From assembly GCA_025930755.1 (NCBI GenBank), contig JAICOJ010000024.1, positions 1-35,794 of the forward strand: a DNA stretch of 35,794 bases. Direction: 5' to 3'. Below are positions 4,898 through 33,165 of this stretch, in pieces. Origin of the DNA: Gemmatimonadaceae bacterium (GTDB lineage: Bacteria; Gemmatimonadota; Gemmatimonadetes; Gemmatimonadales; Gemmatimonadaceae). Each line of letters opens with the position of its first letter. Within the stretch, counting starts at the first letter, position 1. The translations under genes were made by a program, and so were the position numbers. The notes under the pieces were generated by a model. That model saw only the letters and a list, made by a program, of their open reading frames with translations, was not told where the DNA came from and ran no database searches.

Positions 4898-5016
4898 AGC
4901 GCGAGTGGCGCTAAAGGCGCCAAAGGCGCTGTGTTCGCGCGGACACGTTATCGGCGCGCTCCTCGTGTCCGATCGGCCACAGCGCCCTCAGCGCCTGTAG
5001 CGCGTTTAGCGCCTTT
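4898..5016. repeat. Dyad of 9-mer tandem arrays with a nested hairpin
   Basis: The left array (4898-4933) is four 9-mers: agcgcgagt, ggcgctaaa, ggcgccaaa, ggcgctgtg. The right array (4981-5016) is four 9-mers in inverted sense: agcgccctc, agcgcctgt, agcgcgttt, agcgccttt. In the 47-base gap an 8-bp hairpin (CGGACACG at 4940-4947 with CGTGTCCG at 4964-4971) is nested. The stop codon of the response regulator (5006-5008) lies inside the right array, so its last unit also encodes the regulator's final residues (QRR). The remainder of the 4768-5005 gap shows no gene. Confidence 0.85.
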
Positions 5017-23840: not shown

Positions 23841-25142
23841 TTGTCGGTTCCCGCCCTCGTCGACCACCTCTTTCGGCACGAAGCCGCGCGCATGACGGCC
23901 ACGCTGGCGCGCATCCTCGGCCCGGCTCGCATTGAGCTGGTGGAGGACGTCGTGCAGGAAGCGCTGTTGGCTGCGCTGGGGCGCTGGCCGCGCGATGGCA
24001 TTCCCGCGAATCCGACCGCGTGGCTCATACAGGTCGCGAAGCATCGCGCGCTCGATGCATTGCGACGCGAGCGACTCGCGGACGATCGCGAGACCCGAAT
24101 CCGCGAGGAAATCGCTCGATGGGGTGATGCCGAACCCTCGGCCATCCTCGACGATCCAGTGATCATCGATGATCAGCTGCGGATGATCTTCATCTGCTGC
24201 CACTCCGCCATCCCTGCGGAGACTCGGGTCACCCTGACCCTCAAGCTCGCGGGCGGCTTCGGCGCGAGGGAAATCGCGCGGGCCTTCCTGGCCGAGGAAA
24301 CGGCGATTCACCAGCGACTCGTGCGGGCGAAGCGGCGGATCCGCGAGGCGGGCCTCGCGCTCGAGATGCCGGACGGCGCGCAGCTGCCGGAGCGGCTCGA
24401 GTCGGTTCTCGAGGTGCTGTACGCCATGTTCACGGAGGGCCACACGGCGCACTCCGGGGATGCGCTGCTCCGCCGCGACATCTGCGACGAAGCGATGCGA
24501 TTGGGCGCTCTGCTGCTCCGGCACCAGCGATTTGCGCGACCCGACGTGCACGCGCTCATGGCGCTCTTCCACTTGCAAGCGGCTCGCTTCGAGACGCGCT
24601 CGGATTCGGAGGGTGAGCTTCTTCTCCTGGCCGACCAGGACCGATCCCGCTGGGATAGGGCGCATATGGGGGCGGGACTCCGGCACCTCGAGCGGTCGGC
24701 GGCGGGGGACGAGATGTCGCGCTACCACATTGAGGCGGAGTTAGCGGCCTGCCATACCTTGGCTCCGAGTTGGGAGGAGACGGACTGGCGGCGCATAGTC
24801 GAGCTATACGATCGGCTCATGAACATCGTTCAGTCGCCAATAGTGGCGCTAAACAGATCGATAGCTGTCGCAGAAGTGGCTGGAGCAGGCGCAGGGCTAG
24901 CCGCCCTTGAGGAGTTACATGGACAGCGCGTCCTGCGCCGATACGCGCCGTACGACGCTGCGCTCGGGGAGATGCTCCGGCGGCTGGGTCGCTACGAGGA
25001 AGCGCTTGCTCACTTCGCCAGGGCCGCCGAGCATGCGGGGTCGGTGCCAGTCCGCCGATTCCTCGAGCGCAGGCAGCGGGAATGCGTCGACGGCTCCCGC
25101 GGGGATGTCGAAACTGGCTGGCTCCCTCCGTCTAGTGCGTGA
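23841..25142 (+). CDS. ECF42-type RNA polymerase sigma factor with C-terminal TPR-like extension
   Basis: This 433-residue protein is an extracytoplasmic-function-type sigma factor of the long, DUF6596-containing ECF42 class. Region 2 is at about 20-78 (ELVEDVVQEALLAALGRWP; WLIQVAKHRALDALRRERL) and region 4 at 105-170 (VTLTLKLAGGFGAREIARAF; HQRLVRAKRRIREAG). The class-specific extension shows LYAMFTEGHTAHSGD (192-206) and DQDRSRWDR (265-273), and ends in a TPR-like helical region. No anti-sigma gene is adjacent; in ECF42 the extension itself is thought to control activity. The TTG at 23841 is used because homology runs upstream of the first ATG (23892). The DGPF/YCII gene 17 bases downstream is the known genomic partner and target of this class. 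Codons 301-363 use rare triplets. Confidence 0.92.
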   Translation: MSVPALVDHLFRHEAARMTATLARILGPARIELVEDVVQEALLAALGRWPRDGIPANPTAWLIQVAKHRALDALRRERLADDRETRIREEIARWGDAEPSAILDDPVIIDDQLRMIFICCHSAIPAETRVTLTLKLAGGFGAREIARAFLAEETAIHQRLVRAKRRIREAGLALEMPDGAQLPERLESVLEVLYAMFTEGHTAHSGDALLRRDICDEAMRLGALLLRHQRFARPDVHALMALFHLQAARFETRSDSEGELLLLADQDRSRWDRAHMGAGLRHLERSAAGDEMSRYHIEAELAACHTLAPSWEETDWRRIVELYDRLMNIVQSPIVALNRSIAVAEVAGAGAGLAALEELHGQRVLRRYAPYDAALGEMLRRLGRYEEALAHFARAAEHAGSVPVRRFLERRQRECVDGSRGDVETGWLPPSSA

Positions 25143-25159
25143 ACCTTCAAGGAGACCCA

Positions 25160-25504
25160 ATGTCCAAGTTCATGCTGATCCTCTACGACCGTCCCGCCGA
25201 CTTCGCGAACGTCACGCCGGAGGACATGCAGCGCATCATCGAGGAGTACAACGCATGGGGCCGCGGTCTGGCCGAGCGCGGTAAGCTGGGTCCGTCGATG
25301 AAGCTGAAGGATGAGGGCGGAAAGCACATCGCCGGCAACGGCTCGACCGTGGTGCGGGACGGCCCGTATGCCGAGGCGTCGGAGGTGATCGGGGGCTTCT
25401 ACACGATCGAGGCGAAGAACTATGACGACGCGGTGTCGATCGCGAGTAGCTGCCCGCACGTGAAGTACTCGGCGCGGATCGAGGTGCGGGAGGTCGATTT
25501 TTGA
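25160..25504 (+). CDS. YCII-related DGPF-domain protein
   Basis: The 114-residue product is a small single-domain YCII-related protein of the DGPF type. It has the usual start MSKFMLILYDRPADF, the middle motif STVVRDGPYAEASEVIGGFY (DGPF-like, here DGPYAE) and a closing strand CPHVKYSARIEVREVDF. DGPF proteins are cytosolic dimeric alpha-beta barrel proteins of unknown biochemistry and are regularly encoded beside ECF42 sigma factors, as here. AAGGAG (25149-25154) precedes the ATG at 25160 with 5-base spacing, a strong ribosome-binding site. The gene probably belongs to the sigma factor's transcript or regulon. A heptamer array begins two bases after its stop codon. Confidence 0.92.
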   Translation: MSKFMLILYDRPADFANVTPEDMQRIIEEYNAWGRGLAERGKLGPSMKLKDEGGKHIAGNGSTVVRDGPYAEASEVIGGFYTIEAKNYDDAVSIASSCPHVKYSARIEVREVDF

Positions 25505-25506
25505 TC

Positions 25507-25725
25507 GAGCTGCAAACTGCGAGCTGCGAGCTGCGAGCTTAGAAGCAACAGCTTTTTTTACCGCAGAGGGCGCGGAGGACGCAGAGGGGCTGTTTCCCTG
25601 CGTCCTCCGCGCCCTCTGCGGTAAAAAAGCTGTTGCCGTTACCGTATCCGTGTGTTCTTTCCGTCCACCTGCGCACCGTCACACGCCTATTGATGCCGTT
25701 CGCAGTTCGCAGTTCGCAGTTCGCA
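25507..25725. repeat. Inverted heptamer arrays around a 39-bp 9-mer hairpin
   Basis: Left array (25507-25541): gagctgc, aaactgc, gagctgc, gagctgc, gagctta. Right array (25698-25725): four copies of gttcgca, which is the inverted form of the same unit (ctgcgaR). Between them is a hairpin with arms 25545-25584 and 25598-25636, about 39 bp with one T bulge and a 13-base loop. Its stem contains three 9-mers (cgcagaggg, cgcggagga, cgcagaggg). The left array begins 2 bases after the DGPF stop and the right array ends 6 bases before the stop of the convergent gene. T-runs lie upstream of the core stem on both strands, unlike an intrinsic terminator. No gene is visible in 25505-25731. Confidence 0.9.
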
Positions 25726-25731
25726 GCTGCC

Positions 25732-27465
25732 CTAACGAGATCCCAGTATCACGTCCCGACGGGCGGTTGCCATGGCGCCGCCGGGGGCAGTGACGGTGAT
25801 CGAGACGCGCCAGGTGCCCGACGAGCGGTCGCGCAGATCGAGGGTAACGCTGCCGACCGCCGTCGGCGCCGCGACGGCGTCCGTCTCCCACTGCATCTCC
25901 ACCGTCTGTGGCGCATCGCGCAGCCCGAGCTTCTCCGCCAATCGGCGCGCGCGGGACGCACGAACCCGGGCGACGCTCACCGTTACACGCGGAGGTGTCT
26001 CGGGGAGGAGGCCGTAGACTTCCCAGTACAGTGTCACGCGGCCGTCGGTGTCCAGCGCCTCGTCCGGGAGAAGGCGCGGCATCGCGTCCGCGAGCGTGCG
26101 TGGCCGCTCGCCGGGCTCGAGCAGCAGAATGTCGGATACCGCGAGCCCGGCCGTGGGCGCCCAGGCCCGCAACCCTCGGCGCGCTCGTGCCGCAGCCCGC
26201 GAATTCCCCGCGAACAGCTCGAGGCTCGCCAGGTAATCGGTGTTGGGCGCGAGGACCATCAGCGCGCCGCGGGCCCCGCCGCTCTCGGACGTGGCTTCGA
26301 GCGGGGCACGACCGTCGTCGCTCGAGACGATCAGTGCGACGCGCCCGGGTGTCCTGTTGAACAGGGTGTCATGCGCTGCGTTCCACGCGCCCACAATGAG
26401 CAGCGAGTCGCCTCGGCGAAACCGTGCGATCTGGTGCCGCAGCGGCTGCAGCGGAGCAGCGCGCGGATGGGCGTAGTGCGTCGTCGCGTGCGATCGCTTC
26501 GGGCGCCAGCTCGCATCGGACGCGTCGAAAGGTGACTCGAGCGCCGCGGCGTCGGGGAAGAAATCGTAGGCGGGATTGGGCTCATGGCCGGTGATGGCCA
26601 GGAAGTAGCCGGCCTGTGTCGGCGAGCGCTCGCGCGTGCGGTCGCGCGACCACGCGACAGGCCAGGCATACCGCAGGACGATCTCGCGCATGTCCGATCC
26701 CCAACCCAGTGGATGAGACGCGCGCCAACGGTCATGCAAGACGGCGAATGTCCGCCGTGCGAGGTGTTCACTGCGGAGCTCGTTTCCTTCGACGGAGTGG
26801 AAGGGATCGGCGAGCCACCACAGCCGCGCATTCAGCGCCGCCCGATCCTCGCACGGCCTGCGCTCGATGAGCCGTTCTGCGTCGCCGTCGAGCAGGATAC
26901 TGACATCCGTCCACCGGCAGCGCGTCGAGTCCGGCATGGCGGAGAGTGCGCGATCGAACGCACGCTCGGCTCCGAGGAAATCGTGCGATACGTGCAGTGC
27001 AAGGCCGAGGAGCGCGTCGCACCACCAAGGCAGCTCATCATCCTGACAGCCGCGAGCGGCAGACGCAGCCCGGGCGGTGTCGCCACCCTCGATGGCGTAC
27101 CAGACGACGCGCGAGCGAATCCATGGGTCGGTTGGCGCATTCCGCAACGCGGAATCGAGCGTCCGCAGGAGCGATTGGCGCAGCCCCACGATTTCCGGTG
27201 GCTCGGCCGGCGGAGGGGTGAGGTCGTCCGCTTCTCCGGCAGCATAACGATAGCGGCCGATGATGATGTCACCGGAACCGCCGACCGACGACGGAACGTC
27301 GGGAAGCAGCCGCAGTCGGCGCTGCTCGAAGCTGCGTGTTGCCCGTTCCGCGCTCCGTTTCGCCGCTGCCTCGACAGCCATCGGTCGGTCCGCGGGCGTG
27401 ACGTCTCCCTGTGCGTGCGCGCGCAGCGGCAGCGCGAGGACGGCGGCGACGAGAGCGACCCTCAT
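25732..27465 (-). CDS. Large secreted protein with a GWxTD-like motif
   Basis: The 577-residue protein has a cleavable signal peptide (VALVAAVLALPLRAHAQ). Residues 90-185 look like helical repeats of TPR type (SALRNAPTDPWIRSRVVWYA; DFLGAERAFDRALSAMPDS). Residues 254-270 (GWGSDMREIVLRYAWPV) resemble the GWxTD motif of a domain common in Gemmatimonadota, Acidobacteriota and Bacteroidota, though the T is replaced by S. The C-terminal 200 residues are beta-rich with repeated strands (RVTLYWEVYGL; VTLDLRDRSSGTWRVSITV), suggesting Ig-like sandwiches. It is exported and probably periplasmic or outer-membrane associated. It lies 77 bases behind the DUF4097 gene on the same strand, with a repeat dyad in its presumed leader. 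Function unknown. Confidence 0.8.
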   Translation of the reverse strand: MRVALVAAVLALPLRAHAQGDVTPADRPMAVEAAAKRSAERATRSFEQRRLRLLPDVPSSVGGSGDIIIGRYRYAAGEADDLTPPPAEPPEIVGLRQSLLRTLDSALRNAPTDPWIRSRVVWYAIEGGDTARAASAARGCQDDELPWWCDALLGLALHVSHDFLGAERAFDRALSAMPDSTRCRWTDVSILLDGDAERLIERRPCEDRAALNARLWWLADPFHSVEGNELRSEHLARRTFAVLHDRWRASHPLGWGSDMREIVLRYAWPVAWSRDRTRERSPTQAGYFLAITGHEPNPAYDFFPDAAALESPFDASDASWRPKRSHATTHYAHPRAAPLQPLRHQIARFRRGDSLLIVGAWNAAHDTLFNRTPGRVALIVSSDDGRAPLEATSESGGARGALMVLAPNTDYLASLELFAGNSRAAARARRGLRAWAPTAGLAVSDILLLEPGERPRTLADAMPRLLPDEALDTDGRVTLYWEVYGLLPETPPRVTVSVARVRASRARRLAEKLGLRDAPQTVEMQWETDAVAAPTAVGSVTLDLRDRSSGTWRVSITVTAPGGAMATARRDVILGSR

Positions 27466-27477
27466 ACGTCCGCAAGG

Positions 27478-27545
27478 TGCTCGATGGACACGAGGTGCTC
27501 AAGGGTGTCCCTCGAGCACCTCGACTACCTCGACTACCTCGCTTA
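27478..27545. repeat. Dyad of 9-mer tandem arrays over a stop codon
   Basis: Left array (27478-27504): tgctcgatg, gacacgagg, tgctcaagg. Right array (27510-27545): cctcgagca, cctcgacta, cctcgacta, cctcgctta, the inverted form of the same kind of unit. The gap is 5 bases, and the inner part forms a clean 10-bp hairpin (27491-27500 with 27514-27523). The stop codon of the DUF4097 gene is 27543-27545, inside the last unit. The left array ends 12 bases upstream of the next gene's start, so it is probably in its 5' leader. Confidence 0.8.
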
Positions 27546-28346
27546 CGGCCTGCGGATCGTCAGCGGCCCGTTCTGCGTCCGCGCCCGGATCGTCGGACCT
27601 CCGCTGCCGAGCGTGGTCGTTATGCGCTTTTCCAGGGACCGACCGACGACAGTGATCGGGAAACCGATCGACATGGGACCGTTCGTGGTCCCCGTCTCGA
27701 GCTGCGCGTTGTATCCCTCCGGAACGTAGAGCACCATCGGCCCGTTCTGCGTCTCGGCGTCGAGACCGGTACCGCTCCAACGGGTCCCGCTCAACGTGAT
27801 CGAGATCGGGCCATTCTGTGCGCGCGCTCGAACGTCGCCGCCGAGGTCGCGGAGCGATATCGGCCCGTTGACGGCGCGCACATCGATAGTGCCCTCGACC
27901 TGAGACAGCCCGATCGGCCCGTTCTGCGTTTCGGCACGCACGTCGGTTCGGCGTGGCACGTAGATCACGAAGCTCACGTACCAGTGCTCATTCCGGTCGT
28001 CCGAGGCCGGCCCACGCGCGCTGACACTCCCCCTGCTCGCGGAGATGCGGACGCCTTCGGCGATGGCGCGCGCCTGCTCTTCCGTCCGGGCGGTCGCGCG
28101 AATGCGGGCTTGCACGTGCACGCTGTCCCGATCCCAGCCGCGAATCGTGACGCCGCCATTCTGGTTCGGCTCGGCGGTGAGCATGCCCCCCGCAACCTGC
28201 CGATACCCCGTGTTTCTGATCTCACAATGTGGAACACGGCGCCGACTCTCGTAGTCACGACAGTTCTCGAGCCACTCGGTCTCGTCCTGCTGGGCGAGAA
28301 GGCTCGGTGCGGCGGCCAGCGTCACGGCGATCAACAGCACTTTCAT
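27543..28346 (-). CDS. Secreted DUF4097 beta-repeat protein with six NGP motifs
   Basis: This 267-residue protein has a signal peptide (VLLIAVTLAAAPSLLAQ). The main part is a repeated beta-strand fold of DUF4097/DUF4098 type: the tripeptide NGP occurs six times with strand-like spacing (ETQNGPIGL, RAVNGPISL, RAQNGPISI, ETQNGPMVL, GTTNGPMSI, RTQNGPLTI). Such proteins form right-handed beta-solenoids on the cell surface or in the periplasm; their role is unknown. The N-terminal part has a pair of cysteines (ENCRDYES; PHCEIRN) that could form a disulfide. GGAGG six bases upstream supports the ATG at 28346. The stop is inside a 9-mer repeat array. The gene is divergent from the scramblase-like gene. 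Confidence 0.88.
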   Translation of the reverse strand: MKVLLIAVTLAAAPSLLAQQDETEWLENCRDYESRRRVPHCEIRNTGYRQVAGGMLTAEPNQNGGVTIRGWDRDSVHVQARIRATARTEEQARAIAEGVRISASRGSVSARGPASDDRNEHWYVSFVIYVPRRTDVRAETQNGPIGLSQVEGTIDVRAVNGPISLRDLGGDVRARAQNGPISITLSGTRWSGTGLDAETQNGPMVLYVPEGYNAQLETGTTNGPMSIGFPITVVGRSLEKRITTTLGSGGPTIRARTQNGPLTIRRP

Positions 28347-28460
28347 CGTATCCTCCATGGTCGCGCTATCAGACACCGGAAGCCGACCGAGGGTTTGGAA
28401 AGGGGCGTTAAGGGGCGTGGCAGGGGGTGGAAAGTCCCCCCGGAAGTGCCGCGCGTGCTC

Positions 28461-28489
28461 TTCGCCTCGGGTAAATCGTCCTGTATGCT
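28461..28489 (+). promoter_or_regulatory. Candidate promoter for the scramblase-like/rhomboid operon
   Basis: TTCGCC (28461-28466) and TATGCT (28484-28489) are separated by 17 bases, a moderate sigma70 match in the 181-base divergent region before the start at 28528. Upstream of it, 28400-28440 is a G-rich stretch with repeated AAGGGGCG and no other visible element. Confidence 0.35.
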
Positions 28490-28527
28490 GAAGTTCCACC
28501 ATCGCACAACGATCTCTGGAGCCACTC

Positions 28528-32910: not shown

Positions 32911-32989
32911 GGATTGCGGATTGCGGATTGCTGATTGCGAATGGTATGAAGCCGAAGCCCCCAATCCGCAATCAGCAATCCGCAATCGG
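32911..32989. repeat. Inverted heptamer arrays between divergent ppc and aceB
   Basis: Left array (32911-32938): ggattgc, ggattgc, ggattgc, tgattgc. Right array (32962-32989): caatccg, caatcag, caatccg, caatcgg, the inverted unit. Together they fold into a stem of about 24 bp with a few mismatches; the single variant unit (tgattgc/caatcag) is placed symmetrically, so the arms match. The loop is about 20 bases. The left array begins 8 bases upstream of the ppc start. The remainder of the gap (32990-33165) shows no gene or clear promoter. Confidence 0.9.
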
Positions 32990-33165
32990 CACTCCCTCAG
33001 TGTCGCGTCGGCACGACAGGGCCAGTCCATCGCAAGTCGCGCAGATGCCGCTCAGACGCGCATAACCAGTGCGCATCGGCGGCGTTTCGGGGTCGCGGGC
33101 TGGCGCGTCCCTTGCCCCTCGTTCAGGCACCCCCCGGAGCTTTCGTCACAATTGCGAGGACACCA

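Follow-up and report, generated by a model that had tools for sequence, protein, structure and literature searches.

A composite tandem-repeat hairpin between two convergent genes of a Gemmatimonadaceae bacterium belongs to a dispersed, stop-proximal set and may mark transcript ends in both directions

What fills the gap between two convergent genes of a Gemmatimonadaceae bacterium, and does it do anything for its neighbours? The gap lies in contig JAICOJ010000024.1 (assembly GCA_025930755.1), of which positions 1 to 35,794 were analysed; this whole stretch of 35,794 nucleotides is called the window here. Its 227 bases between the two stop codons are nearly all one compound inverted repeat. 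A preliminary description had presented the locus as a three-layer dyad, with heptamer arrays outside and a 9-mer hairpin inside. These inner and outer repeats are real, but they proved to be two different elements of a dispersed family, whose units change between species. In its anatomy the feature combines two dispersed intergenic elements. This genome and related ones hold many such inverted tandem-repeat hairpins, placed directly behind stop codons, and the feature is one of them. Judged from sequence and position, this dispersed hairpin, a 9-mer element within a 7-mer element, would most likely be a bidirectional transcript-end structure (termination or 3' protection), a reading in which our confidence is slightly better than even.

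The outer arms are inverted heptamer arrays of 29 nt that are 90% complementary (25508-25536 and 25700-25728), and Tandem Repeats Finder reported period 7 at 25506-25539 and 25698-25726. Their position at the ends of the convergent genes was described correctly; the extent first given as 25507-25725 is corrected to 25508-25728. Inside them, a perfect stem of 31 bp (25554-25584 with 25598-25628) and one of 14 bp (25545-25558 with 25623-25636) combine into about 39 bp with a single bulged T (7 T against 6 A), in agreement with the near-perfect 39-bp hairpin noted before. A core arm consists of about three 9-mers (CGCAGAGGG CGCGGAGGA CGCAGAGGG). The core is placed off-centre: it adjoins the left array, whereas 63 nt separate it from the array on the right. 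Purines make up 69% and 31% of the two core arms, and 59% and 41% of the outer arms. The predicted RNA fold of the region reaches -156.5 kcal/mol, compared with -85.6 +/- 4.5 in dinucleotide shuffles (z = -15.9), and the DNA fold gives z = -13.8. The window holds 30 exact 14-mer inverted pairs within 230 bp; Markov controls gave 0.22 (maximum 3).

Seven T precede and six A follow the core stem, so that T-runs lie 5' of the stem on both strands. This had been pointed out before; it is a family trait in this genome, where a T-run precedes 18 of the 19 nine-mer arms, and not a local oddity. The focal element lacks the GC-rich hairpin followed by a T-run on the coding strand that marks an intrinsic (Rho-independent) terminator. 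No canonical terminator or promoter was predicted at the locus, and a scan of 25100-26100 on both strands found no terminator-like site; the statement that this is not a standard intrinsic terminator holds. At the gathering score the element belongs to no Rfam family. Sub-threshold Rfam matches were to microRNA precursors only and were dismissed as chance hits driven by the long stem. A phage or plasmid origin was likewise set aside, with no phage match and one 77% match on a Gemmatirosa kalamazoonensis megaplasmid.

Without 25545-25636, what remains would be an unremarkable heptamer element whose spacer measures about 70 bp. We therefore infer that a 92-bp 9-mer hairpin element (25545-25636) is nested in the spacer of a heptamer-array element with units CTGCGAG/TTCGCAG; the 9-mer element would have inserted into the 7-mer element. 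Among the other 9-mer loci inspected, none had 7-mer arms around it. The sequence between core and right array (25634-25700) was rejected as part of a repeated element: the 63-nt stretch from 25637 to 25699 has no second copy in the genome (best match beyond self no better than E = 0.13).

The preliminary description had proposed a search for the hairpin core elsewhere in the genome and had named an absence of copies as one part of what would speak against it. In the 4.27-Mb genome with the focal locus (G000), the 9-mer core has 128 matches, and the heptamer-array pattern has about 700 matches compared with none for its reversed control. Element statistics were collected from a sample of 433 kb of G000 and about 240 kb of a congener of the same genus (G001, 81% complete). 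Period 7 (54 arrays) and period 9 (11 arrays) prevailed in the G000 sample, with a single array of period 8 and no array of period 10; Markov controls contained none. Read on the right arm, the 7-mer units fall into the families TTCGCAG, TTCCTCG, CTCCTGA/CCCCTGA, ATTCTGA and GCAATCC, and the 9-mer units into CCTCTGCGT and CCTTCAGCG. The unit CGCAGTT occurs at 485 sites in G000 against 0-3 sites in 199 other genomes of the phylum, which marks a private expansion.

Placement follows stop codons. The paired elements in 40 tandem gaps lie at a median of 5 nt from the upstream stop and 50 nt from the downstream start; 31 of these 40 are within 20 nt of the stop, where uniform placement predicts 16.7 and 5000 simulations reached a maximum of 25. 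The 13 elements in convergent gaps mostly reach to about 10-20 nt from both stops. Among gaps of at least 60 bp, an element was present in 13 of 32 convergent (41%), 40 of 173 tandem (23%) and 5 of 57 divergent gaps (9%). Canonical hairpin-plus-T terminators followed the stop at 29 of 171 element-free sites versus 17 of 237 shuffled ones, a modest excess; such terminators are scarce behind stops. Some members of the set enclose a classical GC-rich hairpin followed by a T-run (L067:7330-7434, L065:13201-13343).

The arms also keep a fixed order. The purine-rich arm stands 5' in 65 of 66 paired elements, with a mean purine content of 71% versus 30% (p = 2e-18). Because the elements are inverted repeats, this polarity holds on both strands. 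In a hand count of the pairs listed for six other genomes of the order, the GGATTGC arm came first in 21 of 21. G000 carries intergenic heptamer arrays less than 50 nt behind stops, in inverted pairs of fixed orientation, as in Xanthomonas. The G-rich-first convergent pairing of Xanthomonas (PMC4692102) looks like the same polarity rule.

Comparison with the congener separates the hairpin from its sequence. The focal element itself is absent there: the orthologs of the flanking genes are present (left 88% identical, right 71% in protein), with one base between both stops. Of 87 orthologous gaps, however, 15 had a long inverted repeat in both genomes, four in G000 alone, three in G001 alone and 65 in neither (p = 1e-10), and the retention persists when only gaps of at least 60 bp are considered (p = 2.3e-4). 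At essentially all array-based sites shared by the two genomes the repeat units differ (Table 1), in some cases between related units (CGAGGAA to TGAGGAA). Unit replacement between species at retained hairpin sites is therefore a pattern of these genomes. Of the outgroups, only G005 has a similar focal neighbourhood, with a different gene order, a short gap and no array; it weakly favours a gain in G000 over a loss in G001.

Table 1. Features of the focal locus (window coordinates) and orthologous sites with different repeat units in the two congeners.
Feature	Position	Strand	Details
Left convergent gene, YCII-domain protein	25139..25504	+	Open reading frame, gene caller, Pfam PF03795 (E=3.6e-15); stop TGA 25502-25504
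Whole intergenic insert	25505..25731		G001: one base between both stops (TGA-C-CTA)
Outer left arm, heptamers CTGCGAG, 4-5 copies	25508..25539	+	59% purine over 25508-25536
Core left arm: GCAACAGC + T7 + 9-mers CGCAGAGGG/CGCGGAGGA/CGCAGAGGG	25545..25584	+	9-mer part 69% purine
Hairpin loop, ~13 nt	25585..25597		
Core right arm, reverse complement of 25545-25584 minus one T	25598..25636	-	Ends with A6 + GCTGTTGC
Unique spacer, core to right outer array, 63 bp	25637..25699		
Outer right arm, heptamers TTCGCAG, 4 copies	25698..25728	-	41% purine over 25700-25728
Right convergent gene, 577 aa	25732..27465	-	Open reading frame, gene caller; stop TAG 25732-25734 (CTA on +)
Orthologous array site	L069:13265		G000 GAGGAAC, G001 GGATTGC
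Orthologous array site	L069:14250		G000 CTGCGAA, G001 GGATTGC; similar CCCGGG hairpin inside both
Orthologous array site	L069:15591		G000 CTGCGAA, G001 9-mers GGTGCTCGA
Orthologous array site	L079:4259		G000 CTGCGAA, G001 TGAGGAA-like units
Orthologous array site	L062:2754		G000 TCAGGGG, G001 9-mers AAGGGGTCG

How could such a structure end transcripts in both directions? RNA polymerase arriving from either gene would copy the purine-rich arm first and its pyrimidine-rich complement afterwards. Hybrids of pyrimidine RNA with DNA are weak. The long hairpin might then form and pull this weaker hybrid apart, so that transcription from both sides would end at the element without a U-tract, the purine-pyrimidine order possibly taking its place. 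The hairpin left at the 3' end could protect the message. Selection or insertion bias would act on whether a gene end carries a hairpin, and not on the hairpin's sequence, which would allow unit families to replace one another between species. In Xanthomonas citri, transcript starts or stops coincide with comparable heptamer repeats more frequently than with control repeats (PMC4692102). The preliminary description had offered a bidirectional stop or a 3' stabiliser as functions, and both fit the stop-proximal placement, the order of convergent over tandem over divergent gaps and the retention of hairpins at orthologous sites. A third suggestion, a replication or recombination hot spot, found no support except high turnover.

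Several observations weigh against a transcript-end function. Intrinsic termination would need the T-runs on the other side of the stem, and the focal element is not essential, as the congener lives without it. There are the few elements between divergent genes (5 of 57 gaps), and the placement behind stops could reflect tolerance of selfish insertions. Among 11 paired arrays outside the focal family in other phyla, mostly cyanobacterial, the polarity was not seen (5 versus 6). Moreover, the sampling began with hit-rich contigs, and the genes used for placement were called with a simple home-made codon-usage gene caller. In the strongest rival reading, these hairpins are selfish miniature mobile elements that do nothing for the host; some enzyme would move them, and they would survive only where they are harmless, between a stop and the next promoter. 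We consider this reading somewhat unlikely. The TCAGGAG family is clearly mobile: the TCAGGAG/CATCAGATGAG element at L062:16873-17044 shares 94% identity with a copy at a non-orthologous site in G001, compared with about 80% in orthologous flanks. Its CATCAGATGAG core with two hairpins occurs with different arms, and copies with terminal inverted repeats lie at non-orthologous sites in relatives, as in miniature inverted-repeat transposable elements. The private CGCAGTT expansion and the empty focal site in the congener point the same way. Against this rival, orthologous sites retain hairpins with different units far more often than expected, also in long gaps, and the elements lie closer to the stop than if they were spread uniformly within gaps; yet insertion that prefers gene ends as targets could produce both patterns. 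No transposase was found beside the elements, and the sole Y1 transposase of G000 has ends of its own. The focal site shows no clear target-site duplication (G001 having its one base between the stops), and no parent element was found.

Termination elsewhere, with the hairpin acting purely as an mRNA 3' stabiliser that blocks 3'-5' exonucleases, appears rather improbable to us; very long stems (z = -15.9) a few nucleotides behind stops and the missing U-tract would suit it, whereas the symmetric enrichment in convergent gaps and the T-tract terminators enclosed by some members suggest termination as well. Inverted pairs of tandem direct repeats also resemble protein-binding arrays, and paired arrays of Geobacter metallireducens were read as binding sites of a global regulator (PMC2700814). 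A nucleoid or global regulator is nevertheless a very improbable explanation here, as a sequence-specific binder would not allow the free exchange of units at conserved sites, and placement tracks stop codons rather than promoters. Least credible is a G-quadruplex element, as proposed for the GGGAATC heptamers of Xanthomonas, which share the period, the location behind stops and the convergent pairing (PMC4692102): GGG tracts are missing from most units of this genome, the focal one included (CGCAGTT, GGATTGC, CGAGGAA, TGAGGAA), and GG/GGG occurs only in the 9-mer arm. For the focal heptamers the G-quadruplex was rejected, CGCAGTT and CTGCGAG being without GGG.

The transcript-end reading can be widened into a general proposal, which we put forward tentatively and hold as possible rather than probable: stop-proximal tandem-repeat hairpins could be widespread, sequence-independent bidirectional transcript ends whose repeat units are 7 or 9 nt long and whose purine-rich arm strictly comes first, and in which both arms would exchange their units wholesale at a fixed site, by copying or insertion.

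Geobacter metallireducens (PMC2700814) and Xanthomonas (PMC4692102) supply the closest precedents, with paired tandem arrays of 7-9-mers. Xanthomonas genomes carry 70-75 convergently oriented inverted heptamer pairs each, with few between divergent genes, and in two species the repeats adjoin the same genes, with wide variation in their length and sequence (Rehm et al. 2015, PMC4692102). The GGGAATC and GGGGA(C/T)T repeats of Xanthomonas and Nostoc resemble ours in being stop-proximal heptamers in inverted convergent pairs, rarely between divergent genes. They differ in having one G-rich unit per genus, read as a G-quadruplex, whereas the focal heptamers lack GGG; wholesale exchange of units at the same site, 9-mers and a nested composite are not described in the accessible text of that account (PMC4692102). 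The 'predicted global regulator binding sites' of G. metallireducens (classes 1-3) consist of three to five tandem 7-9-mers, paired on opposite strands at variable spacing. Class 3, MTYCTGA, covers the ATTCTGA and CTCCTGA units of G000, and class 2, TCTCCGTSY, differs by a single mismatch from TCTGCGTCC in the focal core. These arrays were proposed as IHF/HU sites, and the accessible part of that report gives neither stop placement nor unit exchange (PMC2700814). Cyanobacterial short tandemly repeated repetitive (STRR) heptamers and the TAACTGA repeats of Beggiatoaceae are intergenic heptamer arrays as well; in contrast to ours they are direct and mostly unpaired, and TAACTGA lies just upstream of start codons (PMC4679880). 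Bidirectional intrinsic terminators also place a hairpin between convergent stops, whereas the focal T-runs are 5' of the core and the stems are several-fold longer and built of tandem repeats.

Repetitive extragenic palindromic (REP) sequences and their hairpin-forming doublets (REPINs) are, like these elements, intergenic palindromes dispersed in hundreds of copies. Unlike them, our elements have tandem arrays as arms and no short palindrome tagged with GTAG/CGTC (the units being CGCAGTT, CGAGGAA, TCAGGAG, GGATTGC, CGCAGAGGA and others), and no Y1 or REP-associated tyrosine transposase (RAYT) gene flanked by the repeats; none was found in the element-rich G001. A RAYT/Y1 transposase was rejected as the mover, with one unlinked copy in G000 and none in the 81% complete G001. 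The 3.3-kb locus of the G000 copy is without arrays. This only Y1/RAYT-like transposase of G000 (L264, G000:C64:10760-11086) has 249 aa and its own palindromic, inverted ends, GGAGTTGTTGAAAAATGGTACG and CGTACCGTTTTTCAACAACTCCG.

A literature search for the exact repeat strings gave no match. As far as the searchable literature shows, three points are new: many unit families coexist under shared rules, their polarity has been quantified, and units are exchanged at conserved sites. Heptamer arrays in unrelated bacteria (Geobacter, Xanthomonas, Nostoc, Beggiatoa) have no agreed function. Here a single lineage has many unit families that follow common rules for where they sit, how they pair and which arm comes first, and that are exchanged between congeners, which separates structure from sequence and makes repeat function directly testable through RNA 3'-end mapping. 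If such elements were the main gene-end signals, predictors based on a hairpin plus U-tract would miss most transcript ends in such genomes.

Related sequences extend far beyond the genus. An exact search of GTDB genomes for a 23-base pattern from the focal core (T-run plus two 9-mers) gave more than 115 matches spread over at least ten phyla, where by our own estimate fewer than one would be expected by chance. The matches lie in Cyanobacteria, Chloroflexota, Desulfobacterota (Trichlorobacter), Acidobacteriota, Nitrospirota, Planctomycetota, Bacteroidota, Latescibacterota, Verrucomicrobiota, Synergistota, Bipolaricaulota, several Pseudomonadota and a Methanosarcinaceae archaeon; many are in metagenome-assembled genomes, so that single placements may be binning errors, and the T-run is built into the pattern. 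Many of them have a matching right arm ending in GCGGTGAA. In IMG/VR, most 9-mer matches fell by chance in coding sequence; the small paired minority starts with TTCACCGCAGAGG. A T-run as a universal trait of 9-mer elements was rejected, TTTT being present in 2 of 127 IMG/VR matches. In 0.83 Mb from other phyla fetched by the 9-mer pattern (L129-L208, mostly cyanobacteria), we counted 110 arrays of period 7, 63 of period 9 and nine of period 8, the period-9 count being partly selected by the search pattern. The preference for units of 7 and 9 nt extends well outside the phylum. The GGATTGC family has 22 to 186 matches in G096, G128, G131, G059 and G025 (another family of the order) and is absent from most other genomes, which indicates patchy, genome-specific expansions.

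Homologs of the right convergent gene are present in 28 of 41 genomes, and a Pfam search with its protein returned no match. Other arrays lie within the window. At 32911-32995 a GGATTGC inverted array pair stands between divergent phosphoenolpyruvate carboxylase and malate synthase genes, and the orthologous gap in G001 has a GGATTGC-like array on one side. A 9-mer inverted array at 27474-27541 (GGTGCTCGA / TCGAGCACC) lies behind the stop of gene 27543-28502; at that site, G001 has a longer member of this family. The 9-mer array pair at 4907-5014 (GGCGCTAAA / AGCGCCTGT) encloses GTGTTCGCGCGGACACG, which its G001 counterpart has in common, with other arms and a longer gap. At the start of the contig, poly-C tracts and half of a CCCCTGA/CTCCTGA element occupy 50-105 and 113-140. 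Many array matches are at contig ends, and the repeats therefore probably break the assembly. Elsewhere, a palindrome TCATCAGATGA lies between two GC hairpins of variable sequence at L061:14261, L062:16946, L070:11685, L114:5413 and 11 further loci; with flanks GGAAAGG/CCTTTCC and 7-mer or 9-mer arms, it forms a modular mobile element of about 150 bp. At L075:6275-6820, the 9-mer arrays AGGCGCTGA and CCTTCAGCG are inverted between convergent genes at a distance of 455 bp, far wider than usual.
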